A stretch of 64,000 nt of DNA. It comes from Rotaria socialis (taxonomy: Eukaryota > Rotifera > Eurotatoria > Philodinida > Philodinidae). Positions 6,190-51,598 of the stretch are shown here, piece after piece; positions within the stretch are counted from its first letter, which is position 1, and every line of letters starts with the position of its first letter. The notes below the pieces were generated by a model that was not told where the DNA came from, did no database searches, and worked only from the letters and a program-made list of their open reading frames with translations. The DNA lies in the NCBI GenBank assembly GCA_905331475.1, contig CAJNYU010002044.1:124001-188000 (forward strand). The letters run 5' to 3'. The translations under genes were made by a program, and so were the position numbers.

Positions 6190-6289
6190 NNNNNNNNNNN
6201 NNNNNNNNNNNNNNNNNNNNNNNNNNNNNNNNNNNNNNNNNNNNNNNNNNNNNNNNNNNNNNNNNNNNNNNNNNNNNNNNNNNNNNNNN
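6190..6289. other. Assembly gap of 100 N
   Basis: Exactly 100 unknown bases, so probably a placeholder of arbitrary size. The right flank is a tandem GGTGCTGAA repeat, which suggests that a minisatellite stopped the assembly. Confidence 0.97.
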
Positions 6290-6589: not shown

Positions 6590-7757
6590 CTACAGAACAA
6601 AATAAGGTGGATAGGCTTCTTGTTGTGGATAAAATTGAACATGATCTGGTGAAGTTGACGGTTTCGTCGAATAGTTCATAAATGTAACTGGTGCTTGATA
6701 ACCAGGTGTGGAGGGATTTACCATACTTTGAGTGCTCGAACGAGTTAAAACACTATTTGGTTGCTCTATCTGCTGTTGTTGCCAACTGTTTGAACTAGTT
6801 TGTTGATCGAGCGAATAACGAAATTGCCATGGTTTTGACGATGATTCTCTTTCGATAATAGTCATACTACAATAATCAACTTTACCAGCAAGTTCAGCAA
6901 GTCTTTCAGGTCTTGGTTGTCCATTCATTAAATGTCGTGTAAGTACTTCAAGACTAGGTGCATGTGCAACAAATAATATAGTACCACCTGTATTTCGATG
7001 TAATTTGATAATTTTTTTCATTGTTTCTTTTGAACGATCATAGTATTGATATTCATTTTCTAATAATCGAAGACTATTCATTTGCGAACTATAATTTGTA
7101 TCAATATTAAAGCCACCATTAATTAATTCATTATCGGACATAAAGTTAATTGGTGATCGAGCATACCAAGATGTACATTCGAATAGACCGAGTTCTAGTC
7201 GTAATGCAACGTGTCCTAAATGATCGAATAGACGAATATCTATTTTTCTTTCGCATCTCATTAAATAAATACTGATGTTTACCTTTCCGACCCATGCCTT
7301 CAAGAATACGATCAGCTGTTTGAATACTACGAAAAGCAGGTGATGAATAACATGCTGTCACCGGTAAATTATATCGTGCAAGAACATTACCAACATTCCA
7401 TGATTGAGCTAAACCTTTTACAGTTAATGGAGTATCAATATCATAGTCTAACCAATTAGCTCGATGTGGTAATGATGGTGGCATATTGGAGTCAAAAGGA
7501 TAATATCGACCACTTTGATCAAATGCTCGTTGTGTCCAACCACCGCCATATGTCACATCCACACGCTCTCCATGACGAATAATTATAAAACGAAGAGGTG
7601 CACTGCCTCCTTCACTACCAGAACCGTATGATGAACTGTAATAACCAGATTCATCGATATCTCCTCCTTCCATATCGTATTTTGATGTTTCACGTTTATT
7701 ACTGTGTCCAAATAAGAGACCTGATGGGTCCAAATATGCATTAATTTTTGCATACAT
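6590..7757 (-). CDS. UBASH3-like histidine phosphatase (PGAM superfamily)
   Basis: Model: exons 7757-7283 and 7215-6590 around a 67-base intron; 366 residues. The catalytic signature RHGERVD has its RHG at residues 61-63. The second half carries the conserved GLFE segment and FVAHAPSLE, whose histidine (about 243) is the second active-site histidine. The order and the 'PLTVKGLAQS' and 'CYSSPAFRSIQTA' stretches match the phosphatase domain of UBASH3/TULA and arthropod ecdysteroid-phosphate phosphatase. The UBA and SH3 domains of vertebrate UBASH3 are absent: residues 1-54 are a Ser/Gly-rich leader, and the last 80 residues are Gln/Ser/Pro-rich with tyrosines. The likely role is dephosphorylation of phosphotyrosine or small phosphate esters in the cytosol. 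An acceptor TTTCCAG lies just before the chosen ATG, so a 5' UTR intron or a trans-spliced leader is possible; a longer start upstream would read through it. Confidence 0.85.
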
Positions 7758-8656
7758 TTTCTTTGTTCTGGAAATGAAAAATCCTAAGAAAAATAGATTT
7801 ACGTGTGTAACTTTTCTCAAAATGATTGCAAGGAAATATTATTTATACAAATAACTTTTCATTTTTTTTAGAAAAGTCTATTGCTATCGCATTATGCATG
7901 GGAAATAATCGAAATGCAGTCACTTGACTATTACCTTCTTTTTCTCTCCTTTCAGATTATTCGTATACAAAATGAAAGAAAATGATGAGCCATGACAACG
8001 ACAAGTAGCCAGGTGGTAGGTATCTTATCTGTCAAAACAGTAATAAGTATATAGATATGTATACAAAAAAAAAATCTATCGAGGACGAATATATAATGGG
8101 TGACTGCTTTTTTTGTATTAGTCGCTCTCTTCTCAATATCATGAATAGGAAAAGAAAAAAAAGAAAAACCGTAAGCATGAAAATCTAATCATCATGAACA
8201 CTGTGAACTTGAATGTTGTTGTCCTTGTTAATCAATCGTGATTCATCTTTGCATTGATGAACAATATTTCCATGATATTCATAATAGTAAACAATACACA
8301 TATTTCTTATCGTTTTCGAAACGATAAAAATAATTTCGCGTAAAAGACAAACACCATATCCTATCATATTCTTTCATCCATCGCCTTTTAATAGATAATA
8401 GTATTGCTGATTAAATTTTTTATAGTGCCTATTTCCAATACAACGGAGATCAATATATGCTATAAAACTTTCAACCAACATAAGACTGGTAGTTTAGACA
8501 CGATGGTTAATGCATATATGTGTCAATATTAATACATTAGCAGTGGAAAAAAACGAATTTTTAACAAGAACAAAAAAAATAATCTAATTAATGGCGAAAT
8601 AATATCTGACAAAGACGAAGACAAAGACAACGAAAATGAAGATGACACATTCATCA
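7758..8656. other. Intergenic, nothing recognised
   Basis: Spacer between two minus-strand genes. It probably holds the 3' UTR of the LIM gene and the 5' region of the phosphatase gene. Only AT-rich DNA and poly-A/poly-T runs were seen. Confidence 0.5.
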
Positions 8657-10554
8657 TCATAAATTGTTCTTCATAGAAGCAATACGTCGTCGACAACATG
8701 CTTGACAAAGTAGGATATCACCTAATGGGTAACAACGACGATCCGGTTCATCATTCAATTGCAAGGAACAATCCTAAGAAAAAAGTTTCAATTTTTAGTT
8801 GTAAATATTTCTATGATGTATTTATATAACGAAAAATTCATACTTGGCATTGATAACATTGAACATGAAATGTTTTGCCCATGGAAATAATTCTCACAGT
8901 TTCATTTGAACCCTAAAATTATACAAAAAAATAATTCTAATCAATATCATAAGCTTTATCTAACATCTTCTGGACAAATCGGATTTGAACATTTATCACA
9001 TCGGGGTCCATACGTCCTAAACATCAACCGATAATGATTTTTATTTTCATTTCAACAAGAATAACTTACATATGATAGTCATGCAAACAAAACAAATTTT
9101 GATTTTTATCCGTTATAAAAGGAATTTCATCTAAACAAATCGAACATTTCGAACATTTAAAACATGTTAAGTGATAGGATTGACCAAGCGCTTGTAAAAT
9201 CTATGTTGAATATAAATAAAAGCTAATTCATTTTAATTTGAACTACTACTCATACTGTATCAGTAATTAAATGGCCACAAGCAATACAATGTTCTAGTGT
9301 TTGATGAAAACCTGTATACTAGAAATATAGAGAAATAAAAAAGAAATAAATTTTTGATTAAAAAACTATTATTTACCAAAAAGTCTTCTTCACAATACAA
9401 TTGGTCTTTAACAAAAAAATGTTTATTTTTTACTGATCGTCCACATAACACACACACAGCACAAAAGCTATGATAGATTTGACCAGCTATATCACATGCA
9501 TCATCAGAATTTGCTACTATTTCGCCGCATTTTCGACAATGACCAATAGAATATTCTCTCTTGATTGGTCCATTCATTGTATCATGTTTATGATGATTAT
9601 TAATCGAAAGTGAATGAAATTGACTTTCGAGTGTGTGAGGATCAGCAATATTATTTCGTTTTACGGTTGATGATATAACAGGAGATCGATACACCATTTG
9701 ATTAGTTGGTTTCGGTGATGCTGATGCATTAAAATCAGAAATAATTACTGAATTTGACTGATGACATACAGGTGAACCTCGTGGTGGAATAACTGGTGGA
9801 TGAAGTGGATAACGTGGTGGTGGTGGTGGAGGTGGTGCCATCGGTTGATCTCGAGATAATGGTTGAGTTAAATAAAGTTGTGTTGTATTAAGATATGTTG
9901 TAGTTGTTTTCATTCCACTTGGTGAGCATTGAGGTAGAACATTTGTCCGATGAATAGTATTACTAGTATCATTTGTTGTTGTTGTTGTTGTTGATGTTAC
10001 TTTTGGCATACGAGCAGGCGGTGGAGGTTTTGTATCTGAACTCCGATGTGGTGAAACAAACGAATAATATCCTTCTAAATAATATATATATATATATATA
10101 TATATAAATATAAGCTAAATATTTAGAAATGTATATTATGGATCTTCATATTACCTGCTGCTGTGGACTGTTGTCTTTGATAATGATTTGATTCATTGGG
10201 TGTTGATGGTAATGAATAGGATATAAATGGTGCTATGGTTGGATTTGGACTACTTTGCTGTTGATGATTTGAATAATAATTAAATGAAGGTGAATGAAGT
10301 GATGATCTAGAGCTTTGACGATTAGCTAAAGCTTTATTAAAAATACTTTCTTCATATGAGGGTGGTGGATGATTTGGTTTTGGTGATGCTTGTGGTGAAG
10401 ATGATAATGATGATTGTATTTTAGGTGATGATGATGATGATGAAGTTTCCCAAAGAACATTTGTTATATCAGGACGTGATGATGGTGAAACAACAGAATA
10501 AAAAGTTTGTTGTTTACCCGGAATAAAATTTCGATTATCGAATGCGTTTGCCAT
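8657..10554 (-). CDS. Ajuba/LIMD1-type protein with three LIM domains
   Basis: Exons: 10554-10155, 10074-9377, 9318-9256, 9200-9070, 9016-8965, 8912-8844, 8773-8657; 509 residues, every junction in phase. The N-terminal 330 residues are low-complexity, Ser/Pro/Asn-rich, with a run of seven prolines (PPPPPPPRYPLHPP) and a PPPSYEE motif that could bind WW domains. Three C-terminal LIM domains follow: the first from CRKCGEIV, the second from CIACGHLI, the third from CDKCSNPICPED. The end, LNDEPDRRCYPL, is characteristic of the Ajuba/LIMD1/WTIP subfamily rather than zyxin. Such proteins act at adhesion sites and in the nucleus as Hippo-pathway (LATS) and mRNA-silencing adaptors. The exon lengths 63-131-52-69 are shared with the zyxin-like gene at 25219-26662. 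The first intron contains a TA microsatellite. Confidence 0.9.
10082..10106. repeat. TA dinucleotide microsatellite in an intron
   Basis: An uninterrupted TA run of about 25 bases within the first intron of the Ajuba-like gene, a few bases from its acceptor site. Confidence 0.9.
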
Positions 10555-25218: not shown

Positions 25219-26662
25219 TCAATTCTCATCAGCACCTCGGCGCGTTCGACAAAGATAGCATAATAATGTGCCATCTGTTAATGGACAACAACCGCCTAAA
25301 AGAGCTATCGTCTGCTCATCACTCAAACTAGTTTGACAATCCTGCAATAGAAGATAAACAGAGATGCTATATGAATACTTTGAAATCAATGATACCTCAC
25401 ATCGATAACAATCAAGATGAAAATTTTTGTTCATAGCAATAACACGAACAGTTTCATAAGAACCCTATGAAATAAAGAGAAAATAATTTTCTTTTCATTT
25501 TCTTTTCTTTTTCTTACGTCTTCTGGACATATTGGATAGGCACACTTTGCACATCGTGGAGCATAAGTACTAAAAAGAACAACGAATAAAAAGAAATAAA
25601 GGTAAATTCATAAAAAAATAATCTCAAATATTACTTGTGATAATCATATAAACAGAATATTTGTCGTTCTTTATCGACAGTAAATGGAAGACCGTCAAGA
25701 CATTCATTACATACTGAACAACGAAAACAACCAGAATGATATGTATTACCAAGTGCTTGAAGCATCTTAATCGCAAACAAAAAGAAAAATATTAAAAGTA
25801 ACAATTTAATTTGTCTTTTGTATAGTTAGATAAATACCTTATCCATTATAAGATGATCACAAATATAACATTTTTCTACTGATTGTTGAAAGCCAGTAAA
25901 CTAAAAACAGCAATAAATTATACTTAAAAAATGTCTTTCATCTTTGCATTTGACTCAATCTCATACAAATAACAAAAATATTTCATTTCTAAAGTGCGTT
26001 GTATAAATAAATAAATAAATAAATAAATATATATATATATTTATATCAACAAGAATAAACGAAAATTTGCCATCTGAAAATAACATAAATAACATATAGT
26101 GTTTATTCGTACGTACCAAATAATCTTCTTCACAATATACTTGATCGTGTACACGATAGAATGATTTACCTCGTAATATACGAGCACAAACAATACATTT
26201 AAAACAGTTATTATGATAAAGTTCGCTCAGTGCTTGACAAGCATTAGACGAGTCAGTTACTGGTTGGCCACATTTTGTACATTGACCATAATATTCATCT
26301 ACAGTTGCGTCATCTTCTAATTCCTTTTCTAACCGTAATGTAAGTGCAGCTAGTTTTTGTTGAACATTATGCAGAGAACTATTAGTACGAGCCATTGGCA
26401 TGGCTGCACTAAATGGTATTGATGTTTGAGATAGACCTTGATCAGATTTTTGAATATTTAAACGAGAAAAATCCTGTGTTTTATGAGAATGTTGTGGACG
26501 ATAATTTATATTTTGATGACCATTGGCTGTTGGTTGAAATCGAGGTTTTGGCGGATGTAAAGTAGTTTTTCGTTGATTAACGTAAAATCTATTGGAATTA
26601 GGAAACGATACTGGAGATGTTACCGATTGTTCTTGCTTTCCGTTTAGTGGAACGTAATTCAT
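25219..26662 (-). CDS. Zyxin/LPP-like protein with three LIM domains
   Basis: Exons 26662-26117, 25900-25838, 25765-25635, 25569-25518, 25464-25396, 25341-25219; 327 residues, all in phase. The N-terminal 135 residues are a basic, Pro/Gln/Asn-rich region without a clear ActA-type proline repeat. Three LIM domains follow: [27 protein letters not shown] and [12 protein letters not shown]. The third contains [20 protein letters not shown], which resembles zyxin/LPP '[20 protein letters not shown]' closely, so I place it with zyxin rather than Ajuba. Such proteins link focal adhesions and actin to signalling. The four internal LIM exons have lengths 63-131-52-69, the same as in the Ajuba-like gene 15 kb away. 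The N-terminus is much shorter than in vertebrate zyxin. Confidence 0.88.
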
Positions 26663-35548: not shown

Positions 35549-35950
35549 AATTCTAACTAATGATCTGAAAATAACATAACAAAAAGAAGTTGAAACTTAG
35601 TCACTGGTTATTTTATTTGCTAAAGAGACGTGTATGTGCGTGTGTGTGTGTGTGTGTGTGTATATACATGCAGTAATAATAATAATGTAAGGATTTACTT
35701 GATTCAGGTAAAATGAATCATCAAATTCCACTGTCAAAAGAAAATTTATTGTTTAAGGTTTTTCTTTAAAATGCATATTTTTTGAAAAAAATCTATTAAA
35801 TCTACATGATGTAACCGACTAAAAGATAGATGGCAGAAGTTAAAAACAAATCTTTGTAAAGGTTTCGTAAATCAATTTCATTGGCTTTTTTTTATAGAGA
35901 ATTTTCTCAAGTTTGTTCTTTCAAATATCTTATTATTCAAATGGATTGAT
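35549..35950. promoter_or_regulatory. Divergent intergenic region, TFIIS / B4GALT7
   Basis: A 402-base spacer between opposite start codons. It contains a perfect GT microsatellite and a T-rich stretch but no recognisable core promoter element. It is the only upstream region for the eight-gene plus-strand run, so a promoter for that run should be here. Confidence 0.5.
35641..35661. repeat. GT dinucleotide microsatellite
   Basis: Ten TG units in the TFIIS/B4GALT7 spacer. Confidence 0.9.
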
Positions 35951-36796
35951 ATGTTCAAAACTCGTCTATTAATTCGAATTTTTCTTATTTATTTTATTTT
36001 ATTTTTTCTTATTGCTGTTTGGTATTTATCAAAATTAGAAAGAAATGAAAGAACAACTCCATTAAGTCATCGTTTAGCGGTTATAGTTCCATATCGTAAT
36101 CGTTCAAACGAATTGGAACTATTTCTATCCCATATGAATTCATTTCTTAATTCTCAATCAATTGATCATATTTTTATGATTGTAAATCAAGTTGATAAAC
36201 ATCGATTTAATCGTGCTGCTCTGATTAATATTGGTTTTATTGAATCTAAATCATTAGTTGATTATATTGTCATGCATGATATTGATCTTCTTCCATTAAA
36301 TCATGAATTAACATATAAATATCCACAGTACGGTCCTATACATTTAGCATCACCAGAATATCATCCAATTTATCATTATCTCAGTTATGTTGGAGGTATT
36401 TTGATCATTAAATCTGAAGATTTTGAACGTATTAATGGTATGTCACCGTTATATTGGGGATGGGGTAGAGAAGATGATAATTTTTATGTGAGAATGAAAC
36501 GTGCTGGAATGAATATATATCGTCCACATAATCTATCAACAAATAATACTAATACATTTCAACATATTCATGATAAAAATATTCATAAACGAGATTATGC
36601 AAAATATGGAAAACAAAAAGAAGAAGGAAGAAAAATTTATCCTGAACTAGGTTTTAATACAACGAAGTACGAAATAATCAATAAAGAAATCAGAAAGACT
36701 AATCAGGGTATTGAATATATTATGTTAGACATTACAATTGAATGTAATTATAATCTAACAGATTGGTGTGATCATCCTCTTAATACAGTGAAATAA
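35951..36796 (+). CDS. B4GALT7: Beta-1,4-galactosyltransferase 7 (xylosylprotein galactosyltransferase)
   Basis: Single exon, 281 residues. This type II Golgi enzyme adds the first galactose to xylose in the linker of heparan and chondroitin sulfate proteoglycans. A short cytosolic tail and one membrane helix (about 8-27) precede the catalytic domain. Key motifs: VIVPYRNR, the metal-binding MHDIDLLPLN (DID at 110-112), SPEYHPIYHYLSYVGGI, the acceptor/donor motif WGWGREDDNFY (from 169), the metal-site histidines in FQHIHDKN, and the family's terminal TDWCDHP. WGWGREDD with this tail separates B4GALT7 from other beta-4 galactosyltransferases. The absence of introns is unusual in this window. 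It is the first gene of the tightly packed plus-strand run. Confidence 0.95.
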   Translation: MFKTRLLIRIFLIYFILFFLIAVWYLSKLERNERTTPLSHRLAVIVPYRNRSNELELFLSHMNSFLNSQSIDHIFMIVNQVDKHRFNRAALINIGFIESKSLVDYIVMHDIDLLPLNHELTYKYPQYGPIHLASPEYHPIYHYLSYVGGILIIKSEDFERINGMSPLYWGWGREDDNFYVRMKRAGMNIYRPHNLSTNNTNTFQHIHDKNIHKRDYAKYGKQKEEGRKIYPELGFNTTKYEIINKEIRKTNQGIEYIMLDITIECNYNLTDWCDHPLNTVK

Positions 36797-36840
36797 TCAG
36801 TCAGATATTTGTAATAGAATGATCTTTTTTTACTTCTTAT

Positions 36841-36850
36841 TAAATTTTAG
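36841..36850 (+). promoter_or_regulatory. Candidate trans-splice acceptor before OXSM
   Basis: TAAATTTTAG ends seven bases before the OXSM start codon, in a 61-base gap after the B4GALT7 stop. Confidence 0.6.
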
Positions 36851-36857
36851 ATAATAA

Positions 36858-38402
36858 ATGAGCGCTTGTCGTATTGTTATTACTGGTCTTGGTGCTGTTT
36901 CACCATTAGGAGTTGGTGTAGAATTAAATTGGCACCGTCTATTAAATAATCATTCCGGTATTGTTTCACTTAATGAAACAGATTATACTGGTATTCCATG
37001 TCAAATTGCTGGTCGTGTACCCATGAGTGTTGATTATCAAAATCAAGATGGTACACTTGATTTTTCTAAATATTTTACACGAATATCTGATTTAAAATCC
37101 ATGACATTAGCAAGTGCTTTTGCTCTTGTTGCTGCTCAAGAAGCAATTGAACATAGTCAAGTAACTTCTTTTGTTTTTCGATTTGAAAATATTAAATTAG
37201 AAAGTAGATACTTTTAGCTTATGATGATCGAACACGAATTGGCGTATCGGTTGGTAATGGAATAGCTGGTCTAGCAAATACATGTTCCATATTCGAACAA
37301 ATGAAAGCTAAAGGTCTATATCGTGGAATGAGTCCATTTTATATAACACAAGTTCTACCAAATACCTCAGCTGGCTATGTATCAGTTCGACATAAATTAC
37401 AAGGACCTAATGTATAATATTCATTGTAATATTACAGCTACTTAATAAATTATTCTTCGTTTTTTAGCTTTGTAATAGTTCAGCTTGTGCAGCTGGCGTT
37501 CAAGCGATTGGTGATGGTTATAATATGATTCGTCTTGGCCATGCTGATGCTATGGTATGTGGTGCTACAGAAGCCACTGTCAATCCAATAACAATATCAG
37601 GCTTTGCACGAATGCGTGCTCTATCTACATCATTTAATGATCAACCTAAACTTGCATCACGTCCATTTGAGTAAATTCTTTTTGTATGTCTATTGTAGAT
37701 TTTAATTCTTTTTTTTTTCTTTTGCAATTTTCAGTCGACAAAGAGATGGTTTTGTAATGGGAGAAGGTGCTGCTATTATGATATTGGAACGACTTGAATC
37801 TGCTCAAAAACGAGGCGCTAAAATTCTCGGTGAAATACTTGGCTATGGTTTAAGTTCAGATGCAAGTCATATTACAAATCCAACTGGATTAGGAGCATTG
37901 AATTGTATGAAAAATGCATTGAATAACGCTCATTTGCATGCGAGAGATATCGGCTATATAAATGCACATGCTACATCGTATGTATTAAATTTCATTTCAT
38001 TTGACTAATCTCATATCAAACAATGCAACGATACAGCTAACTATAATTTTTGTTTTCAGAACTCCAATCGGAGACCGCATTGAAAAACAAGCTATTACAC
38101 AATTATTTACGTCCGATAATTCTAATGTTTTAGTTTCTAGTACCAAAGGTCATACTGGTCATTTACTTGGCGCTGCTGGTGCTCTCGAATCTATATTCAC
38201 TGTTCTTGCTTGTAACCATGCAATATGTCCTACAACATTAAATTATAAAAGTAATAATGATGATTCAGAAGATTCGTCATTATTGAATATTATTTCTAAT
38301 GATAAACCATTATCATGGAATAGTAAAACGCGTATTGCATTGAAAAATTCATTCGGTTTTGGCGGTACAAATTCTTGTCTTGTTATATCAAATTTTTTTT
38401 AG
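36858..38402 (+). CDS. OXSM: Mitochondrial 3-oxoacyl-ACP synthase
   Basis: Exons 36858-37160, 37208-37411, 37468-37670, 37735-37977, 38060-38402; 431 residues. This condensing enzyme (KAS II type) extends acyl-ACP in mitochondrial fatty-acid synthesis, which feeds lipoate production. It starts [18 protein letters not shown]. The active-site cysteine lies in NSSACAAG (Cys176), with catalytic histidines in NAHATSTPIGD (His315) and [12 protein letters not shown] (Lys347, His352) and the terminal [27 protein letters not shown] is typical of the family. The second exon starts after AAAGTAG, not the later TTTTAG, because only that choice keeps frame. No obvious mitochondrial targeting peptide precedes the domain (human OXSM has about 35 extra residues), so an upstream start or weak targeting is possible. 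The stop codon overlaps the presumed acceptor for the next gene. Confidence 0.94.
38391..38402 (+). promoter_or_regulatory. Candidate trans-splice acceptor inside the OXSM stop codon
   Basis: A run of T ends in TAG, which is both the OXSM stop and a near-perfect 3' splice site. The CDC123-family ATG follows six bases later, so no separate intercistronic region exists. Confidence 0.6.
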
Positions 38403-38408
38403 ATAAAT

Positions 38409-39484
38409 ATGTCTTTTGCTGATGAATTAAAATCAGTAAGACTTCGTTCAGTGACACAGCCAAAAGAAAAACGCAATGAACAACTTTTATGTCCTGATAG
38501 TGATACGTACAAGAAGATGATGAATGAAACACAGTTTGAATATTATTTTGATATTATTAAGCAATGGACATTTCCATCAGTTATTGTATCAATGGATGAA
38601 GACGACAGAAAAGCTCTTCATCAAGGACATTTATTATTTAAAAATTCGTTATTAGATGATGACGATAAAAAAACTAATGAATGTTTTCAACAGTATCCGC
38701 AATTATTTAAATTATCAAATGCTATTGATTCGTGTGATATTCAACGTCCAATATTTGTCCGTTTATCAACAAGAAGTCCGAAAGATGCAATTTTATTATT
38801 GAATAAACAGAAATGTAAACAAGTTTTTCAAAAAACATTGGATGACATGGTAGCTGATGATACATCCGGTTTAGTTTTTATTTATTTTATATAGTTATCA
38901 TTATATTTATTTTAGAACGTAATCGACGTTTAATTGCAATCGATGAATCATCTATTCGTTTACTATCTGTAACGGATGGTTTTCATGCCATACAACTTCT
39001 AGTTGCCAGTGAGCGTATTCAAGATGATCTAATATCGTGTGCATCATTGAATTTAATAGTTCGTCAATTTATTATTGATCGTCGAAATTTAAAAAGTGAA
39101 TTTCGTGCATTTATATTTAAACATAAATTAACAGCATTAACTCAATATAATGAATATATATTTGATAGGAATTTATTTGAAAAAAAAGATCTCATTTTAA
39201 AATCTATTAAAGATTTTTTTGAAAATGAACATATAATTGAACGAATACCTTATGAAAATTATATCTTAGATTTAATATTGATCGAAAATAACAATAATAA
39301 TTATCAAATATTTATCTGTGAAATAAATCCATTTGCAGAATTTGCCGGTACTGGATTATTCTCATGGTTAAATGACCGAAATATTTTATTAGGTCGTGAA
39401 GAATTTCAATTTCGTATTAACGAAAATGATACTAGTGAACATTCGGAAGCGAATGATCAATGGTTATTATTAATGAATAATTAA
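38409..39484 (+). CDS. CDC123/D123-family eIF2 assembly factor
   Basis: Exons 38409-38868 and 38916-39484; 342 residues (human CDC123 336). CDC123 proteins are ATP-grasp-fold chaperones that join the eIF2 gamma and alpha subunits and so permit translation initiation. Visible family elements in order: WTFPSVIVSMDEDD (compare 'FPKLNWSAPRDA'), FVRLSTRSPKDA, NLIVRQFIIDRRNLKSEFRA, FIFKHKLTALTQY, a helix with DLILKSIKDFFEN, and ICEINPFAEFAGTGLFSW, the ATP/metal-binding strand equivalent to 'WLIDFNPFGEVTDSLLFTW'. The 'EINPF...TG..LFSW' wording is closer to the CDC123-like branch seen in protists and plants than to canonical animal CDC123, so it may be a paralogue. A single 47-base intron is present. 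It starts six bases after OXSM. Confidence 0.85.
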
Positions 39485-39528
39485 TAAAAAGAATAATAAT
39501 AATAAAACTAAAAGCTATCTATTTTAAT

Positions 39529-39538
39529 TTGTTTTTAG
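39529..39538 (+). promoter_or_regulatory. Candidate trans-splice acceptor before KCTD3
   Basis: TTGTTTTTAG, 22 bases before the start codon in a 75-base gap. Confidence 0.55.
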
Positions 39539-39559
39539 ATGTTTTAATAGCAAATACAC

Positions 39560-42500
39560 ATGCCAAATCAAACAGTAGATATAATTAATTTAAATGTTGG
39601 TGGACAACGCTTTTCAACAAGTCGACAAACTTTAACATGGATATCAGATTCATTTTTTACTGCGATGCTCAATGGGCTAATATCGACAAATCGCGATGAC
39701 CAAGGTTACATATTTATTGATCGCGATCCAAAATTATTTTCAATCATTCTCAATTATTTAAGAACTAAAGAATTGGGTAAATAGTTCTTTCTTTTTATAC
39801 TGAATGTTTTTCTTGAAATAGAGAATTAGAATGCTTATTAGTCAGCTTAATAGATTACTGGACTTAGTTGATACTAGATAATCGTTAACTTATTTCTCAT
39901 GAAAAATCTCAAAAATATAATGTTGAACTATTATGTAAACACCGACAGGAAGATAGAAAATAAAAGTGTGGACATGTGTTTCTTTTATGAATAAATACAT
40001 CCAAGTTAATAAGCACATCTTCGGTTTCACATGCAATACCATTCATTCGTACGCACGGTCATTCAAACCTAGTTGGCTGATACAATTAGGTGTAATGCTT
40101 CACTTCTATTCTATTAGTCGTTACTCTAGTAAATACTTTTCTCTAAAATATAATTGTTGTGCTCCTGTTCGTGAAATATAGTGTTTTTTTTTAATATTAT
40201 AATAATACTTTCAAAAAAGTAAATTACCAAAATTTAAAGGATTTGAAATTTGGATAAGTACATAGTCACGTCAATTTTAGAAATTATATCATTTCAAGAC
40301 GTTTCAATCAATTTAAACATAAAAGCCTAAAATTTCCTATTATACCTTTGTAATTATAATGATCGACGATAGAAACGACAAAAATGATTAGAACTTCGAA
40401 AAGTGAATTATTTTCATTAAGATTAGTCTCTTATACAACGAATCTAATGGTAACTAGAAAATCGTATTTCTGAGTAAAAGTCAAAGATCAATTTTGTAGT
40501 TTGAAAGTTTCTCACAACTGCTTGGAATGTGCATGATGCATATAGTTCAAACTCAGGAGAAATGCTACATTTGAATATATTTCATCGTAATTCGATACAG
40601 TTACTACCACAATTGTAAAGAATTAGTTTTCTCTGAATAGAAAAATGACGAACATTGAAAAAATGATTTCAGCACTTCTTCTATAATACTTTTTACAGTT
40701 GTTTTAAATCATTTCTATTGATCAGATATCAATGGTTGTGATCTTCATATGTTAAAACATGAATGTGAATTTTATGGTGTACAACCATTGATTCGTCGAT
40801 TACAATTATGTGAAGATCTTGAACATAGCCAATGTGGTGATGTTCTATTTAATGGATATATTAATCCTCCGCATTCAACTAATACGCAAACCTCATGTGA
40901 AACTACGCAATTATTACCATGTCAACCAATTGTTTATCAACCAGTATTATCTCAACCAGCAAGTTCAGTTCGACCTGGCACTGCTTTGAGATTAACTAAC
41001 ATTATGCAACAAACACTAAATCGTAGTGCATCACAAATAGGAGATTTTAGGTATGTGAAATGAATAAAATAAAAATTCAATATATTTTGACACAAAATTT
41101 AATTTTCTTCATCAGCTAATTGTTTTATTTTGACAATAATAATGCAGAAATACTCTCTAGATGAAGATTTAGCATGTGCTGTTGCAAATTCTTTCGATAA
41201 GAAAACATGAATTAACTCATTAATATAAAATTTAATTCCTATTCACTACGGCTAGTTATTTTATTTTTTACTGATGAAATTTATAGAACATCGTCATCGG
41301 ATTTTGTTCCGATGGCTCCGTCAGCATCAAGTGTTAGTCGTGGACATTCACGTGCATCTTCAACTGATTCAGTTCTTTGGACTACGCATCAACCTAATAC
41401 ATCATCTCATGTTCGCCAAAAATCAGCTGCATTTATTGATCATCATCCTCCAACGCCAAGTTCACCTGTAGCAAGTGTCATTCTTCTAGCTGGACATCAC
41501 AATTGGATTAGTGCTGCTTATTCAAATAATGGTTGAAAATAATTTTTATGAGGATTTTTTCAAAAGTCTATCTATTCTATTTTCTAGTCGTTATGTGCTA
41601 TAAAATGAAAGACACAAGTGGATGGCAAATAATGTTTGAATCCGAAGTTCAATCTGATGACATTTATCGTTTAGCTATAACAGCTCGCTCATCGTCATCG
41701 GCAGCAGCTAGTCAACAAACTCAAGAATCAACATCAAATATTCGAGAATCAAAACTTCTTGGCATTGCTGTACGAACAAATGTTCGTCTTTGGAATATTG
41801 TTGATGCATCAATACACACAATTCTTGGAACATTTGCATTTGGTGGACCGATTGATAATTTATTTTTTATCAATTCACAATTAGTAGCCACAGGTGATGA
41901 AAGAAAAGTCGGCGTATGGCATTCAATTTCACAACAATGGCAAACACAAGAATTAACGCGCATATTAAGTTTTGATACTGTAGGAATTTTGTTTTTTCGA
42001 GTTTTATTCTAAAAATAACTACAAAAAAAAACATTCTTATTTTAGGCTGGAACATTTCTATTACTTGGAAGTGAGACGGGATCAATTTATTATTTTGATA
42101 TGCAAAAATTTCCATTGAGAATGAAAGACAATGATTTATTGATCACAGAAATATTCAAGTACAGCTTTTTAATATTAATTTGTCTTCATTTAACATAGTG
42201 ACAATTTTATTTTGTAGAGATCCAGCTGGAGAATCAATTACAGCTTTAAGTGTTTATTTAACACCAAAGACAAGTGTTACAGGCAATTGGTAAGAAATCA
42301 GATAAAAGAAAACTGTTCGAAAAAAACAAATCTAATATTATATTCGTAGGATTGAAATAGCTTATGGAACAAATTCTGGTATTATTAGAATTGTTGTACA
42401 ACATCCAGAAACTGTTGGTCACGGGTAATCCATTATAAAATATTTTTATCCTATAACTTCTTATACAATAATGTTATTTAGTCCTCAACTATTTCAAACA

Positions 42501-44224
42501 TTTTGTGTACATCGTAGTCCAGTGACAAAGGTTAAAATCAACAAAAATTGTATTATTCGATGTATTCACGTTTTTCATTTTCTTTTCTAGATTATGCTTT
42601 CCGAGCGACATTTAATAAGGTAGAATTATGTGAAATGCATTATTATAAACTTTATTTAATTATTAGTGTATGTGCTTCCAATAATCATGTTCGTACATGG
42701 AATGTTACACGTTTCCGTGGCATGATTTCTACGCAACCAGGTTACATAGTTTTAAATGAAAACGATTTCACAAGTAAAAAAGAAATAATTATTTTCTAGG
42801 ATCAACGCCACTTGCTTCGTATCGTATTGTATCTATTGAACCAGCTCGATCAATAGCTAGTTATACTTCTGGGAATGTGAGATTTTTTCTTTTTCTATCA
42901 TTCATCTTATTTTTGAACTTGATTTTCTAGGATATTGGTAAGCTTTATCCATGTACAAGTAGAATGAAAAGAAAATAATATAAATTTAGGACCGTATGGC
43001 GATCGTGATGATCAACAAGTTTTTGTTCAAAAAGTAGTACCATTTGAGACAAATCAAATTTATGTCAGATTTTGTTCAACAGGTATAATATTTATTTTAG
43101 TACAAATTATTTTTTCTTCAATAAAATTTAAAATCTATTTTTAAATAATTTATTACTTTGAAATTCAATATATAACAAATGAAATATTATTTCTGATGAT
43201 TCATGAGCGATGATTTCAAATGGAAATTTGTCGGTGGAATCCCTACAATATTACTGTGTAATATAGTAACTTTGAAGCTGCTGACATTGTAAAAGTAGGA
43301 TTTTACCAATATTGGCTTCGGGTTATAGATTTCTACTTACTATTTTAAGAGGATAACTCTAATATATAATAGTTCTTGAGTAAAATTATGACCAACGATT
43401 ACTACCTTGAATTCAACTTTTGTTTTATACTAATTTTGTTGAAGAACTTTTGCTTTGTATCAATAGGACTTCGGCTAATTATTAGTGAAAATTTATAATA
43501 GTCTATCCCTTTTTGGCGTAGAACACTACGTAATATAGTACATCGGGGGTGGGAAGACAATATTTCTACTCCTATTACTGTGCAATATCTCTTTTAGATC
43601 ATGTATCTTTTTTAAAAGTATAATCGAAATTAAAATTCGATAAAAAACATTTGTGATATAATTAAAATCAAATGTTATAATACCGGAAAAATAGTCTAAC
43701 AAATTCTTTTTTTCTTTGCAGGCAAGCGAGTCGCTATTGTTCGATCTGTGGATAGTTCTCCAATCAGTTGTTTCACCATACATGAATGCGAAGGACCATC
43801 AAGATTAAGTACACGTCCTCGTCGATTTATTTTCACTGGTCACGATAATGGTTTGTTTAAATTAGTCAACAAAACAAATGAATTTTTTGTTATTATTATC
43901 TAAGGATCTATTCAATTATTTGATTTAACAACTGCTATTGAACTTAGTTCAAGTTCGGATGTAAACTCTCTCACATTATCATCACCACCTTCTCAAAATA
44001 ATCAAGGAGGTCCATCACCAGCTGATTTACTTAAGATGCTTGACCACTGTGATTTTGCAGTTACAAACGGGCAAAATCAAAATTTTCTATCTTCACGCTG
44101 TTCAACACCTTGTTGTATGAGTAATAATTTACCAATAACAACTGTCAATTATACGACTGCTTTAATATCATCACCATTAACACAACCAGCAACAAAAGAG
44201 GACAATGATAAACATGTTTCATAA
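39560..44224 (+). CDS. KCTD3: KCTD3/SHKBP1-like BTB and WD-repeat protein
   Basis: Fifteen exons: 39560-39776, 40726-41050, 41287-41531, 41588-41979, 42046-42158, 42218-42289, 42350-42424, 42482-42530, 42591-42619, 42667-42740, 42800-42876, 42931-42937, 42990-43082, 43722-43850, 43905-44224; 738 residues, every phase consistent. The N-terminal BTB/T1 domain reads [40 protein letters not shown] and [20 protein letters not shown]. After a Ser/Pro linker the WD-like region has [63 protein letters not shown] and [16 protein letters not shown], all very close to human KCTD3/SHKBP1. In vertebrates KCTD3 regulates HCN3 channel surface levels and SHKBP1 binds SH3KBP1. The single gene here is co-orthologous or unresolved between the two. 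The C-terminal tail is shorter than in humans. One exon is only seven bases. Confidence 0.95.
39777..40725 (+). other. Long first intron of KCTD3
   Basis: 949 bases where most introns here are about 55. No exon-like frame, repeat or RNA gene was recognised inside. It may carry an internal promoter or regulatory element. Confidence 0.5.
42931..42937 (+). other. KCTD3: Seven-base microexon of KCTD3
   Basis: GATATTG between introns of 54 and 52 bases, with TTTTCTAG before and GTAAGC after. Including it yields [17 protein letters not shown], identical in layout to human 'SGNDIGPFGERDDQQVF'. Skipping it breaks the frame. Confidence 0.85.
43083..43721 (+). other. Long intron 13 of KCTD3
   Basis: 639 bases. 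The words ACTGTGTAATATAGTA (about 43253) and ACTACGTAATATAGTA (about 43526) recur near its middle and end, hinting at an old small insertion. The donor and acceptor are normal. Confidence 0.4.
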
Positions 44225-44443
44225 TGCATTTCTTTTTCTTTCTCTTCAACTTGCATAATATTTATTTTAAAACACAAAAAAAATCCGTCTCGTGCTTCCA
44301 ATATGTGAGTGAGAAATCTATCTTATATCTTATCTTTTTATTGCTTTTGTTAAACTAAGACCATGTCACTATCATTGGGTTTATTCTGCATAAATAAATT
44401 TCTTAGCCAATATATAAATACCATTTTAAAAACGACAAAAAAA

Positions 44444-44453
44444 AATGTTTTAG
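44444..44453 (+). promoter_or_regulatory. Candidate trans-splice acceptor before PLPP6-like gene
   Basis: AATGTTTTAG, directly abutting the ATG, in a 229-base gap after KCTD3. A cis intron is unlikely because no coding or donor context precedes it, but a 5' UTR intron is not excluded. Confidence 0.55.
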
Positions 44454-45035
44454 ATGTTGAAAACATTTCATGCGTACGATCAAGATCTTTCATTTCGGTG
44501 GGCTTTATTTGGTCGATTGAATTCTCGATATATTCATTTAAGAAAATTGGTTATTGCCTTGGAATTTTCTGGCTCAGGTTATGTATGGATTCCATATTCA
44601 TTGATTATGATTGAACTTTATCGTACATCAATAAATGAAGCAATGCCATTTATTTTACTTTTCACTGGACTTATGTATGATATAGCTATCATTGGTATAA
44701 CAAAAAGTATTATACGTCGACCCAGACCAAAAATTAATCATGACGATGTTCTTTCAATAGGACCAGATAAATTTTCTTTTCCAAGTGGTCATACTTCTCG
44801 AGCTGTATTTCTTTTATTTTATTTTATCGAAACAAATTTTTTCCAACAAATTCCAAAGTCAGTTATTATAAGTTGGTTAGGTTCAGTGGTTGCTTCACGT
44901 ATTTTATTAGGACGCCATTATGTATCGGATGTTTTAGCTGGAGTTTTGTTTGGAATTTTTGAATGTACAACTATTGTACATCTTTCACCTCTTGTAGCTC
45001 GGTTTGTTTTATCGTTTTATGGCGTTTCAAATTGA
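44454..45035 (+). CDS. PLPP6-like polyisoprenoid diphosphate phosphatase (PAP2 family)
   Basis: Single exon, 193 residues. A membrane phosphatase of the PAP2/lipid-phosphatase fold. The three catalytic motifs are intact: KSIIRRPRP (84-92), PSGH within FSFPSGHTSRA (110-113), and SRILLGRHYVSDVLAG (148 on; catalytic His 155). The spacing, GPDKFSFPSGH and the small size match PLPP6/PPAPDC2, which dephosphorylates presqualene and isoprenoid diphosphates in the ER, more than the larger LPP enzymes. Several hydrophobic helices lie at about 42-60, 64-82, 117-130, 137-150 and 158-185. Human PLPP6 has a longer N-terminal tail, so the start here gives a shorter protein. Substrate is inferred. Confidence 0.88.
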   Translation: MLKTFHAYDQDLSFRWALFGRLNSRYIHLRKLVIALEFSGSGYVWIPYSLIMIELYRTSINEAMPFILLFTGLMYDIAIIGITKSIIRRPRPKINHDDVLSIGPDKFSFPSGHTSRAVFLLFYFIETNFFQQIPKSVIISWLGSVVASRILLGRHYVSDVLAGVLFGIFECTTIVHLSPLVARFVLSFYGVSN

Positions 45036-45270
45036 TGATAAAAATAAATCAGCTTCTTCGGTCAAAATTCTAAATTGAAGCTTTGTTTTTGTTTGCTTCA
45101 CATCGAATTTTTTCAACTATTTGTTTGCAAACATCACAGACATTCATTTGCGTTGCTCACGAGAAATAAAAGCGAAAAGAGATTAAAATAAATTGTTTGA
45201 TTTCAACGAAAGAATGATGGCCATCAACCAACGATGAATTATAATTCTCATTTCTATTCATTGATGTGCG
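45036..45270. other. PLPP6-like / chitinase spacer
   Basis: A 235-base gap. Unlike its neighbours it has no TTTTAG close to the next ATG; the nearest AG after a T-rich run is CATCACAG at about 45132-45139. The chitinase gene may have its own promoter or a longer leader. Confidence 0.4.
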
Positions 45271-47375
45271 ATGATGACAAGTATTTTGACTTCGTTGACC
45301 ATGATTATATGGATCATCGGTAATCAAGGTAATTATTCAATTAAAAAAAAACACAAAATTGATTATTTACTTGTATTATTTGATATATTTTAGTTCAAGC
45401 CGAATGTCAAAATGAGACATCAGAATCTATATTTGTTTATCGACGTGTGTACGTATATGTATATATATATATATATATTCGATGATAATGTTCAATTTGA
45501 TTCAATCATATTTCAATTTAGTTGTTATTTTGCAAATTGGGCAGCTAAACGATCCGATAATATTAGTCGTTTAACTCCCGAAGAAATAGATCCATTTTTA
45601 TGTACACACATTAATTTTGCTTTCGGTAAAGTACTTGAAAGTTTAACAATAGCACCGAGTGAAGAAGATGACATCAAAGGATGGACTTTAAATTCTAAAG
45701 GCATGTATGAACGTGTAATAAAACTTAAAGAAACAAATCCTGATCTACGTGTCTTATTGAGTGTTGGAGGATGGACACATGCCTCTCGTGGATTTAATGA
45801 TGTATCGAAAAATGCTGCGAATATGTATGCTTATGTTGTATTCTATTAGAATATAAGAATTTTCTTTTTTATTCATAGTAAAACTTTTGCAGCCAATAGT
45901 ATAAAATTTTTAAGAGATAATAAATTTGATGGATTGGATTTAGATTGGGTACATAAAAACAAAAGTGATCAATCGAAATTTATTCAAAAATATTCTATTC
46001 AAATAGGAATATCCAGGTGCAAAAGATCAAGGCGCAGAACCTCATACTAAAACTGGTTATACAAAATTAGTCAAAGTAAAAATAGAAATATGCAAAAATA
46101 AATATTATTTACCAAAAAAAAGAATATAAAATAGAAATTAAGTGAAATGTTTCAGCAAGAAGCTGAACAAACCGGAAAAGAAAAATTATTACTTACATGT
46201 GCTACAGGTATTTAATTAGATTGTTTCGAAAAGATTTAACAAAAAATCAGTATGTTTTCAGCTGCTGCACGCCATCGGATTGAAGCTGGCTATGAAGTTT
46301 CAGAACTTTGCAAGTATGAAGTTATTTAACACTGGATTGATTTGATTAATTTTGATTTTATTCTTAGATCTTTTGATTTTGTCTCAGTCATGACTTGTAA
46401 TTAATTTTGATCCAAGAATTTTTCTTCCTTTTTTTATATTTCTTAAAGAAAATGTTTTGTTTTCTTCTCGTATAGATGATTATCATGGTAGTTGGGAAGG
46501 TAAAACGGGACATAATAGTCCATTGTATGGAATGAGTAATGATAGAAAGAAATTTCGTGAATGGAATATTAAAGGTTCAATGCATGTGTGGTCCGCATTA
46601 GGTTGTCCAAAAGAAAAACTTAACATTGGCCTTTCAGCTTATGGTCTGTTTGTTTGTTTGTTTCTTGTGCATTCCTCGTCTGTTCTGCTAGTTATTCAAA
46701 ATAAATTATGTATTTAGGAAGAGCTTTTACATTACTTCGAGAGCCTGGTGTAAAAATTCGTAAATCAAAAGAAAAGAAAAAATCACCGATCGGACTCAAA
46801 GCAGGTGCTGCTGAAGCTGGAAAATATACACGTGAAGCAGGTGTTCTATCTTATTATGAAGTAAGTTTTAATTTCAATAATTTGAAACTATTCCATTTCC
46901 AAAAGAAAACATAGATATGCGAATTGATTGAGCAAAATCCAAGTAATCGTGTATTGTGGCATCAAGAAATGAGTGTTCCATATGTGTCCAGTGATACACT
47001 ATGGATTGGTTACGATAATGTTCGAAGTGTTAAACTAAAAGTATAGAAAAGAAAGAGCAATGCTTTTTTAAAATTAAATCATCATAAATTAAATTTTTGT
47101 TTCTTTTGAATTAGATGAAATTTTTAAAAGACCAAGGTTATGGCGGAGTGATTATCTGGTCGTTGGATCTAGATGATAAAACAGGTGACTTTTGTAAGGA
47201 AGGCCCATTCCCATTAATCAATGCAGTGAAAAATGAACTATCAATTTCACCGAATCATGTATCTAATACAAATACAAAATGTTTCGATGACAATAATACA
47301 TTAGTATTATTATTCGAAAATATTAATTCTCAATCAACAACAATAACAGTAGTATATAAGAGTAAGATTGAATAA
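45271..47375 (+). CDS. GH18 chitinase, catalytic residues intact
   Basis: Twelve exons: 45271-45328, 45394-45448, 45522-45824, 45879-45948, 46007-46075, 46156-46207, 46262-46313, 46368-46396, 46476-46643, 46718-46860, 46915-47040, 47115-47375; 461 residues, all in phase. A signal peptide (LTMIIWIIGNQVQA) is followed by a single glycoside hydrolase family 18 domain: RVCYFANWAAKR, FLCTHINFAFG, LLSVGGWTHASRGF, the catalytic FDGLDLDWEYPG with proton donor Glu163, FVSVMTYDYHGSWEGKTGHN, KLNIGLSAYGRAFTL, and GVIIWSLDLDDKTGDFC. The full DxxDxDxE motif argues for active chitin hydrolysis, unlike chitinase-like lectins. No chitin-binding domain follows; the last 50 residues are Asn/Thr-rich. It is secreted, probably for food digestion or remodelling of chitinous structures. 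It starts at the first of two ATGs (45271, 45274). Confidence 0.93.
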
Positions 47376-47519
47376 GTTTTGTTTATCATTTGTTTGTTCT
47401 TTTCTTTTTAGATTTTTTCTTTTTTCTTCTACTTGATGCTGTAATACATATTTGAATAAAATCCAATTAGTTTTGAATATATATATATATATATGTTTAG
47501 CAATCATGGATTTCTTTTC

Positions 47520-47529
47520 TCTGTTTTAG
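47520..47529 (+). promoter_or_regulatory. Candidate trans-splice acceptor before CENPX
   Basis: TCTGTTTTAG directly abuts the start codon. An AATAAA lies at about 47454 in the preceding gap and could end the chitinase transcript. Confidence 0.6.
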
Positions 47530-47784
47530 ATGGATGATATAAATAATCGTAACAATGAATATATCAAAGCAGAACTTGTAACAAAATTATTAAAACATTT
47601 TTTACCTGAAGATAGATCATCGCGTTTATCAAGTGATATGGTAAAATATTTCACCGAATTAATATTTCAATTTATACATCAAGCATTTACACGTACAATT
47701 CAACAGGCAACATCGGAAGGAACCATTCATGTTGATATTCAACATTTCGAAAAAATCCTTATGCAATTATTACTTGATTTTTGA
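47530..47784 (+). CDS. CENPX: Centromere protein X / MHF2
   Basis: Single exon, 84 residues (human 81). A histone-fold protein that pairs with CENP-S (MHF1) in the CENP-T-W-S-X kinetochore complex and in the Fanconi-anaemia FANCM-MHF DNA-remodelling complex. The ELVTKLLKHFL helix, the central FTELIFQFIHQAFTRTIQQA helix, VDIQHFEKILMQLLLDF and the exact C-terminus LLLDF match human 'RKELVSRLLHLHF...VDVDQLEKVLPQLLLDF'. Very short, yet complete. It is the seventh member of the plus-strand run, 154 bases after chitinase and 71 before CXXC1. Confidence 0.93.
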   Translation: MDDINNRNNEYIKAELVTKLLKHFLPEDRSSRLSSDMVKYFTELIFQFIHQAFTRTIQQATSEGTIHVDIQHFEKILMQLLLDF

Positions 47785-47845
47785 TAGTTGTCAAACTCGT
47801 TGAAAAATAAAAGAAATAAAAATAATAGAAAAATATTTTGTTATT

Positions 47846-47855
47846 TGTATTTTAG
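47846..47855 (+). promoter_or_regulatory. Candidate trans-splice acceptor before CXXC1
   Basis: TTGTATTTTAG-type acceptor abutting the start codon, in a 71-base gap that also contains several AATAAA-like words. Confidence 0.6.
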
Positions 47856-50800
47856 ATGGCAACAATAAATTCAAAACATTCCTCAGGATCGTTCACTCAT
47901 AAATCATTATCGAATTCAAGTTTAGGTGATGGTCAAATACTTTACTGTCTTTGTCGATCAAGTGATTGTTCAACATTTATGATGTATGAAACCAAACTAT
48001 TTTCATATTAAATATTTTCATATCAAATATTTCTAGTGCATGTGATGCATGTAATATATGGTATCATGGCTCGTGCATTGGTGTTAGTGAAAAAGAATCA
48101 GCAAAAATTGAAAATTTTTTTTGCCATCGATGCCGTCGTAAGTAATCTTTAAATCAATTGCAAAGTTCAAGTAAACAATAAAGTCTCTCCGTAACGAACA
48201 TTCTTACTGCTAATGATTACCTGTTAGTATACCAAAGCTATCATTTTAGAGCGAGTTGAATCACAATAAAACAGAAAATCATTCTTTCCCATCTTTCCTT
48301 GTTTAAAGTGTTTTTATTGTTTTCTTTGGTTTCCAGCATTTCGACTTATGGCTTCGTTTTGTTTTCATGTTTTAAAATATGTCTCATTTTTTACGTTCGA
48401 TACTATTTCACACAATGAGGATGATTTATTGGCATCAGGGCTTTCATCCATGATTGAATATTATGCAACCAATGTTATTGATGAAAGATATTTCTAGAAT
48501 CCCAACCGTAGAATTTGTTCTAATGATATCTATGTTGACGAAGTCAATGGGTATAGCGGAGAGTAAAGAAACATGATTTACAGTCAGAATCGGAAATATA
48601 TATAAATAGATGAAAGTTCAAGAGTCTTCTACTAAAAGGAGAAATTTTGTGATACGAAGAAATGCTGCAAGAAATTATGTAGTATATTTTAGAATGTAAG
48701 GCGATTTCTTTGTTTAACTTCAACAATTGAAGAAATGAAATGAAAGACTCCTTCTCAGTTCAATAAATACCTGCTGTTTTTCGTTTTGAAATAAACATAT
48801 ACTATGCGTCAAATTCCGCAGACATTTCGGTTTAGAATATTTTACATTTATGTTTCTTTGATGTGCGATACTCTTCTTTAGGATAAGATCATGCGATTAT
48901 CTCTTTCCAACCAGTTCCAGTGAAATTCGATTATTTTTAGAGATTCATACCATTCACTAGATTCGTAGCTTTACATCGCAAATTGATGCTAGAAATAATT
49001 TGAATTTTTAGTAATTGTCGACTCCAACCAGTAATTACGTTTTGAAAAGCTAGAGCGCTTTCCAGTACACATTAAAATATGTTGAATTATAATAGTCTAT
49101 GAAACCTAAATTAGAGAATTACTGTACACAATTCGTATTCTTATTTCGTTAAAAGAAGTTTTTCTTTTCAAGTTTTTCAAGTTAACAATTTTGTGTACAC
49201 AAGTGTATGTTCGAAATTCTTCCGATTGTCCCTTGATGCACGCTAATAGATTCTGTACTTTTAAAAGATATAACTTCATTTAGAGATATTTTACTTTAAT
49301 TATTCTCTTTTATAGATAAAACACCTAGTTTGCAAATCAAATACAATAAAGCGCAAAAAGAAATCGAAGAAAAATTAAGCAAATGTATTAGAGTAAGTTT
49401 TGCTACGGTAATTGTGAAATAATTGTTCTATCGGTTCAACTTTAGAAACGATTACAGAAAGAAGCACAGCTATTGAATCCTTCATCTGACACTGCACAAA
49501 AACAAAATGAATTCTCAACTGTAAGTTAGAAATGATTTAAAGAATTAGTTAAATTGAACACTGTTGTTCGATTTCTTGTTATGTCGACGAAAATTTCTCA
49601 ATGAAACTATCGAAACGCTAAAACAAATCGTCCATATGATCTTTTGCAACTAAATTATAATGATTTTGTTGATTTTTAAAAATATACCAACAAAACAAAA
49701 GCTAGCAGAATTCTCATGCTTAAGTTAAATGATCCTCCTTGTTTGTATCCTGAAAATATTTATCGAAATAAACTTTTCAGAATAGATAGATGAATCATTA
49801 TTTAATCTGACATATCTATGAGCAGCAGTTGGTGTCGAACTCATGTTATTTTGATTTCTTCTTTATACACTTAAAATTTGGCTTGAAAATTCAATCTCAG
49901 TATCAAGATGACGAAATTTTCTAGTCTTACTAACGCATTCTTGTAAAATTAAATGGAAGACATGAGCTATGATTATCTCTTTATAAGTACATAACCAATT
50001 TTTTCAATAATGTTCCATAGAATGATAAAAAAAATAGAGAACATTCAACAAGCATGGATCAATATACTAATGATGATTCAACTAGTAATCAATCAGACTC
50101 ATCATCATCATCCACCACTGTCATGTCTCGACAGCAACAAGTAATTCACGGAAATACGGCTGGAGTAGCGCGACCAAGTGGCATTCAGTCGGTACAATAC
50201 GAAGCTTTAATGTCGCGTGATGAACAAGAACAAACAACTAAAACTTCTGTCATTACAACAAAACGTGCTTTAATAACAAAAAATATTGGAACTACTGAAA
50301 AACGAAAGAGACATGTTAGCGGTAGTGCTGGTCTACCTCCTATCAAACGAGAACTACAACCAGAATTAAATGATGAAGTTTGTTCGTTCTTGTTTCCGAA
50401 ACGTATCCGAGTAATTTTGAAATATCTTTTCAGGAAGATACAAAAAATCTGAATGCACGACGTCGCCGTCGTAACACTGAAAAAGCAGTTCGTCAATGTT
50501 ATGGACCAAGTTGTCTCTTCGAAGCACGTCCTGCATCAAAATATTGCTCAGATAAATGTGGTTTAGAGTTAGCTCGAAAGTACGAAATATTAGATTACAA
50601 TATTATCATATACTTTATATATATATGTGCTTGATTTGATTAGTCGTCTTCTTCAATTTCTTCCAATGCGTCTAATGCAATGGCAAACAATTCCATCCGT
50701 CGCTGATACTTTCAATAAAAAAGCCATTGAAGAGATTAGAAATGAAATTGAAGATATAAAACAACGTTTATCAGTACTTGATGAACGACAGCGAAAATTA

Positions 50801-51598
50801 AGTGATATTATTGAAAGAGGAAAAAAATTAATAGCTACTAACGATACTAATGTATGGAAATTCATTTTTTACTAATCCACCAAAATACTTCTTTTGCTGT
50901 TAAATAGAAAATCGATACAACAAATGATGAACCTGATGGAATGTGTTTCTGTATATTATGTAATCAAGAAATAAGTCAAAAAACTTATACACGTCATATT
51001 GATAAATGTTTTATTCGAGTAAAGAAAAGTTTCTTCTTTTTCGTGTTTTGTTTGTTTCAAATGATTCGATTTTCCTTAGTTTGAAAGTCAAGTATCCTAT
51101 GGATCAAATATTAAATCGAATATTGAAGGTTTATTTTGTGATAATTACGATCGTACAAACAATCTTTATTGCAAACGACTTAAAGTTATTTGCCCAGAAC
51201 ACTCAAGAGATCCAAAAGTAATACAAAATTATATTTCAGCTTTTTTTTAATAATATCTTCAATATTTTTTTATTTATATGAATAGATTGGTCCAGATGAA
51301 GCATGTGGTTGTCCATTAGAAAAAGATTTATTTGAAGTATCAGATGAACTATGTACAGTACCAAAACGCTTATGTTCAAAACATTTTAAATGGGATCGAA
51401 AATATCGTGCACAAATTGATCTCGAGCGACTGCATGAAGTATTAATTATTATAAAGTTTTTCTCAGTTCTATATTCATTTTTATTTTTAGTTAATGCGTT
51501 ATGAAGAACTTATTGAGAAAGAAAACCGTTTGCGAACAGCTATGAATGAACGTGGTTCGGTAGCAGGACTTCTTTTACATAAAACAACAGCTCATTAA
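47856..51598 (+). CDS. CXXC1: CFP1/CXXC1-like SET1 complex subunit without CXXC finger
   Basis: Eleven exons: 47856-47983, 48037-48137, 49316-49392, 49446-49520, 50021-50377, 50434-50579, 50644-50851, 50908-51018, 51080-51217, 51286-51438, 51491-51598; 533 residues, all in phase. It recruits the SET1 H3K4 methyltransferase. The PHD finger (about 30-77) has YCLCRSSD, IACDACNIWYHGSCIG and FFCHRCR; it is followed by KTPSLQIKY, as in human 'KDPKLEIRY'. The C-terminal SET1-interaction region is well kept: QCYGPSCLFEARPASKYCSD, RLLQFLPMRLMQWQ, a coiled coil, KTYTRHIDKCF, CPEHSRDPKIGPDEACGCPL and the end GLLLHKTTAH. Between them, human CFP1 has the CpG-binding CXXC finger. Here the region (exons 3-5) has one cysteine and no CxxCxxC array, and the 1.18 kb and 0.5 kb introns show no exon that could supply it. 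Confidence 0.92.
48138..49315 (+). other. Long intron 2 of CXXC1
   Basis: 1178 bases, the longest intron in the run. I looked for a CXXC-type cysteine array and found none. No other feature is recognised. Confidence 0.5.

Follow-up and report, generated by a model that had tools for sequence, protein, structure and literature searches.

RESULTS

Eight plus-strand genes lying close together in the stretch of Rotaria socialis DNA analysed here (64,000 nt, hereafter the window) probably constitute one or two spliced-leader (SL) operons. This operon reading, proposed in a preliminary description of the DNA, finds support in the sequence, namely in the placement of splice acceptors, the scarcity of donors in the gaps, an acceptor that overlaps a stop codon, AATAAA signals and gene spacing. 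The sequence tests that we ran all favour polycistronic transcription resolved by SL trans-splicing over transcription from separate promoters.

Gene content and spacing of the run

Gene models were built with a small ad hoc gene finder and refined by hand, with identities assigned through Pfam and PDB searches, and both models and domain searches bear out the eight plus-strand genes under the names first given to them. The run opens with single-exon B4GALT7 (35951..36796; PF02709/PF13733; PDB 4irp B4GALT7, E 2.5e-77), followed by OXSM with 5 exons (36858..38402; PF00109/PF02801; PDB mitochondrial OXSM, E 5e-110) and a CDC123-like gene with 2 exons (38409..39484; PDB 8phd CDC123, E 3.7e-7), which gave no Pfam match above the cut-off and is the weakest assignment among the eight. 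These are followed by KCTD3, with 15 exons and BTB and WD40 domains (39560..44224; PF02214, E 8.8e-21), a single-exon PLPP6-like PAP2 phosphatase (44454..45035; PF01569, E 5e-19) and a GH18 chitinase with a signal-peptide-like N terminus (45271..47375; PF00704, E 1.7e-75). The run closes with single-exon CENPX (47530..47784; PF09415, E 2.8e-12, profile positions 2-74 of 74) and CXXC1/CFP1 with 11 exons, PHD and CpG_bind_C (47856..51598; PF12269, E 2.1e-78; PF00628, E 4.6e-8). No CXXC zinc finger is recognisable between 47856 and 51598, long introns included. The CpG observed/expected ratio of the window is 1.05, i.e., without depletion, which would fit a genome lacking CpG methylation.

With respect to general composition, the window has a GC content of 29.9%, 61 short GT-AG introns in the gene models (median 59 nt; a minority of introns are long) and a gene density of about one per 3.5-4 kb. 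This is in agreement with the Adineta vaga genome, for which a GC content of 30.8%, a median intron of 58 bp and ~300 genes/Mb have been reported (PMC5916493). A 100-N assembly gap lies at 6190-6289. Two related single-LIM-domain genes (6590-10554 and 25219-26662), both on the minus strand, lie ~15 kb apart; the model at 6590-10554, to which a histidine-phosphatase-like domain is joined, probably represents two genes.

The gaps between the eight genes, calculated from the gene coordinates, are 61, 6, 75, 229, 235, 154 and 71 bp and match the earlier figures exactly. While the run gaps span 6-235 nt, neighbouring genes outside the run in the same window are 226-5068 nt apart. Upstream, TFIIS lies on the opposite strand and shares with B4GALT7 a divergent region of 402 bp (35549..35950), likely to be the promoter region of the run; in the 5 kb downstream, no recognised gene was found. 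The gaps have a GC content of 0-31%. AATAAA is present in 5 of the 7 (dinucleotide-preserving shuffle, P = 0.003), with ATTAAA upstream of OXSM, and the 6-nt OXSM-CDC123 gap is too short for a poly(A) signal.

Acceptor sites before the downstream genes

A TTTTAG within 22 nt of the ATG had been described for six of the seven downstream genes, and we recover all six, at distances of 0-21 nt on the plus strand. They lie at 36845..36850 (7 nt 5' of the OXSM ATG), 38397..38402 (6 nt 5' of the CDC123 ATG, overlapping the OXSM stop codon) and 39533..39538 (21 nt 5' of the KCTD3 ATG), and, directly abutting the ATG (0 nt) in three genes, as many as had been stated, at 44448..44453 (PLPP6), 47524..47529 (CENPX) and 47850..47855 (CXXC1). 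The chitinase shows no acceptor-like site within 120 nt of its start, in line with the earlier remark that it lacks a close acceptor and may split the run in two.

The placement of these acceptors is beyond chance. TTTTAG occurs 97 times in the whole window and within 22 nt of 2.2% of 1,671 other non-coding ATGs, against 6 of 7 here (binomial, P = 7e-10). Because the gaps are very AT-rich, we also ran a dinucleotide-preserving shuffle within each gap (5,000 trials), which yielded a mean of 0.22 and a maximum of 3 out of 7 (P = 3e-9). When scored with a matrix built from introns outside the run only, four of the six sites score as ordinary acceptors and those of OXSM and PLPP6 are mediocre, their scores being equalled by 10% and 13% of non-coding AGs, respectively. 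The KCTD3 acceptor abuts not the KCTD3 ATG but the start codon of a two-codon uORF (ATG TTT TAA, 39539-39547) ahead of the main start at 39560; if the acceptor is used, the KCTD3 mRNA would carry this uORF immediately after the leader.

The strongest argument for an operon is the OXSM-CDC123 junction. OXSM ends in AAT TTT TTT TAG, so that the CDC123 acceptor, pyrimidine tract as well as AG, consists of the last three OXSM codons. The alignment of the OXSM protein with mitochondrial OXSM (PDB) extends to residue 428 of 431, and the gene is therefore complete. Since the CDC123 acceptor is the OXSM stop TAG, neither a promoter of CDC123's own nor a 5'UTR intron could be accommodated except inside the OXSM coding sequence.

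All six run acceptors read TTTTAG|AT, as does none of the 61 short cis introns (for TTTTAG alone, run sites versus cis acceptors, Fisher's exact test, P = 3e-5). AT after the AG is found in 9 of the 61 cis acceptors and, taken alone, also sets the run sites apart (P = 5e-5). TTTCAG|AT occurs on the minus strand upstream of CCT4 (16547), NAPA (33916) and TFIIS (35564), at 23, 33 and 16 nt from the respective ATGs, which brings the start-proximal sites with AT to 9 of 9 against 9 of 61 in cis (Fisher's exact test, P = 7e-7), these nine having been preselected for T-richness and proximity to a start. The same reaction thus seems, from these motifs, to serve genes outside tight runs too. Since such acceptors also precede the non-clustered CCT4, NAPA and TFIIS, the acceptor alone is not proof of an operon; a lone acceptor marks trans-splicing or a 5'UTR intron, and the operon inference rests on spacing.

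CCT4, NAPA and TFIIS, none of them in a tight run, are candidate recipients of a leader, and TFIIS and NAPA, 358 nt apart on the same strand, are a possible second, looser pair. A strong TTTTTAG|AT acceptor also lies at 21348, 108 nt 5' of the start of an EF-hand protein gene (21456). A minus-strand RRM gene with an acceptor seemingly abutting its ATG was left out, since the GTAAGT donor found upstream, together with coding-like sequence, points to a cis intron.

For donors in the gaps, we required an intron length of at least 38 nt and took the 10th percentile of cis donors (3.94) as the yardstick. The best scores are 1.8 for OXSM, 4.2 for PLPP6, 3.0 for CENPX and 0.8 for CXXC1, with no donor at all for CDC123 and KCTD3. 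Gap donors are thus weak or absent at five of the six junctions, the exception being KCTD3-PLPP6, where a GTGAGT at 44305 scores 4.2. Because this site resembles a weak cis donor and lies in a 229-nt gap, PLPP6 could be transcribed from its own promoter, with an intron in the 5'UTR. Around the chitinase-CENPX gap, we observe a donor-like GTAAGA at 47362, 14 nt inside the chitinase end, and a TTTTTAG|AT acceptor of very good quality at 47412, 118 nt 5' of CENPX; a 3'UTR or alternative splice around these two positions is possible.

Proposed transcription units and competing explanations

Given the absence of an acceptor at the chitinase and the weaker case at KCTD3-PLPP6, two units are favoured, B4GALT7-OXSM-CDC123-KCTD3(-PLPP6) and (chitinase-)CENPX-CXXC1, with a probable transcription-unit break in the plus-strand PLPP6-chitinase gap (45036..45270), where no acceptor lies near the start codon. 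RNA polymerase II would initiate in the divergent region between TFIIS and B4GALT7 and, past B4GALT7, would go on to transcribe OXSM, CDC123, KCTD3 and probably also PLPP6. The spliceosome would add a separate leader RNA at each TTTTAG|AT, so that the downstream gene acquires a capped 5' end, and the upstream gene would be cleaved and polyadenylated within the short gap or, at OXSM-CDC123, at the acceptor itself. The chitinase most likely starts its own transcript, with CENPX and CXXC1 probably trans-spliced downstream of it. In three of the mRNAs the leader alone would make up the whole 5'UTR; the published bdelloid leader ends in AAGAG (PMC3795323), which would place a purine at position -3 of the start codon.

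We weighed this operon reading against three others. It is unlikely, though the most plausible of the three, that the genes are trans-spliced and yet transcribed separately, from promoters in the upstream gene or the gap, so that the acceptor merely ends an outron and there is no operon. The AG|AT acceptors of CCT4 (23 nt), NAPA (33 nt) and TFIIS (16 nt), outside tight runs, speak for such an arrangement, but a CDC123 promoter would have to sit within the OXSM reading frame, the gaps of 61 to 75 nt minus the acceptor leave almost no room, and the spacing of the run is far tighter than that of the rest of the window.

Conventional splicing with no trans-splicing, in which the acceptors would belong to 5'UTR introns or to overlooked N-terminal coding exons, their donors lying in the gap or within the preceding gene, appears quite improbable. 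Donor-like sites do occur within 400 nt of all acceptors (chance occurrence ~0.009 per nt), for example GTGAGT at 44305 and GTAAGA at 47362; however, gap donors fall below the cis 10th percentile except at KCTD3-PLPP6, the CDC123 donor would fall in OXSM coding sequence, and the common TTTTAG|AT is unlike cis acceptors. That the pattern is nothing but a compact cluster in a genome rich in AT and in T-rich AGs hardly deserves credence: gap GC is indeed 0-31% and the window holds 97 TTTTAG, but composition-matched shuffles gave at most 3 of 7 in 5,000 trials, which refutes chance at P ~3e-9 for acceptor placement.

DISCUSSION

The acceptor of C. elegans is TTTTCAG, and the run acceptors are mostly TTTTAG; no SL2-type leader is known in rotifers. 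C. elegans operons have a spacing of ~100 bp, with a rare SL1-type lacking a spacer (PMC12582326, PMC7986045). The run resembles them in its single strand, its short spacing and its order of poly(A) signal and then acceptor before downstream starts, with OXSM-CDC123 resembling the type without a spacer, and differs from them in its gene set. Ciona and Oikopleura operons use one leader, with spacing down to ~1 bp or ~30 bp (PMC7986045), whereas the spacing of the run is mixed, from 6 to 229 bp, and the phylum is another. Among gnathiferan relatives, chaetognath operons (Spadella, Paraspadella) comprise genes <250 bp apart that are resolved by SL, the longest with nine genes (PMC12460157, PMC2481426); their leader is different, and the best-represented genes in Paraspadella operons are those of protein metabolism, unlike in the mixed run described here.

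Bdelloids trans-splice a 23-nt leader, GGCTTATTACAACTTACCAAGAG, onto more than half of their transcripts (PMC1925144, PMC3795323), so that acceptors at genes outside tight runs are to be expected (PMC1925144). GGCTTATTACAACTTACCAAGAG is the probable leader for the run acceptors, the bdelloid system having so far been described for mRNAs. A search for this leader in the window, in viral contigs and in prokaryote genome contigs gave no match, and the window was not expected to carry it. Likewise, Rfam and tRNA scans of the window returned no RNA genes; an SL RNA gene was neither found nor expected there. Protein searches of the viral contigs with CCT4 and B4GALT7 revealed no related loci.

Established examples of SL operons come from nematodes, flatworms, tunicates, chaetognaths and Hydra (PMC7986045, PMC12582326, PMC12460157). 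For rotifers, operons were given as not determined in 2008 (PMC2481426), and operons and polycistronic mRNAs were stated to be unreported in 2021 (PMC7986045); in 2025, rotifers were loosely counted with the lineages that show trans-splicing and operonic transcription (PMC12460157). Judged by its sequence, the run is a candidate operon for rotifers that would rely on a known mechanism and not on a new one. The broader proposition, that bdelloids have genuine mixed-function SL operons of up to at least five genes, with acceptors in stop codons and a TTTYAG|AT trans-splice code unlike cis acceptors, has in our judgement about an even chance of being right.

If the operon reading is true, Rotifera would join the animal groups with operons. 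SL operons are scattered across animal phyla, and the reasons for their origin are debated. An EST survey detected no leader in monogononts (PMC1925144), and a mixed-function operon in bdelloids, by contrast with monogononts, would offer a close comparison within one phylum. For genome annotation, the run is a warning that close same-strand genes may form one transcription unit, and it provides a candidate motif for finding more of them.
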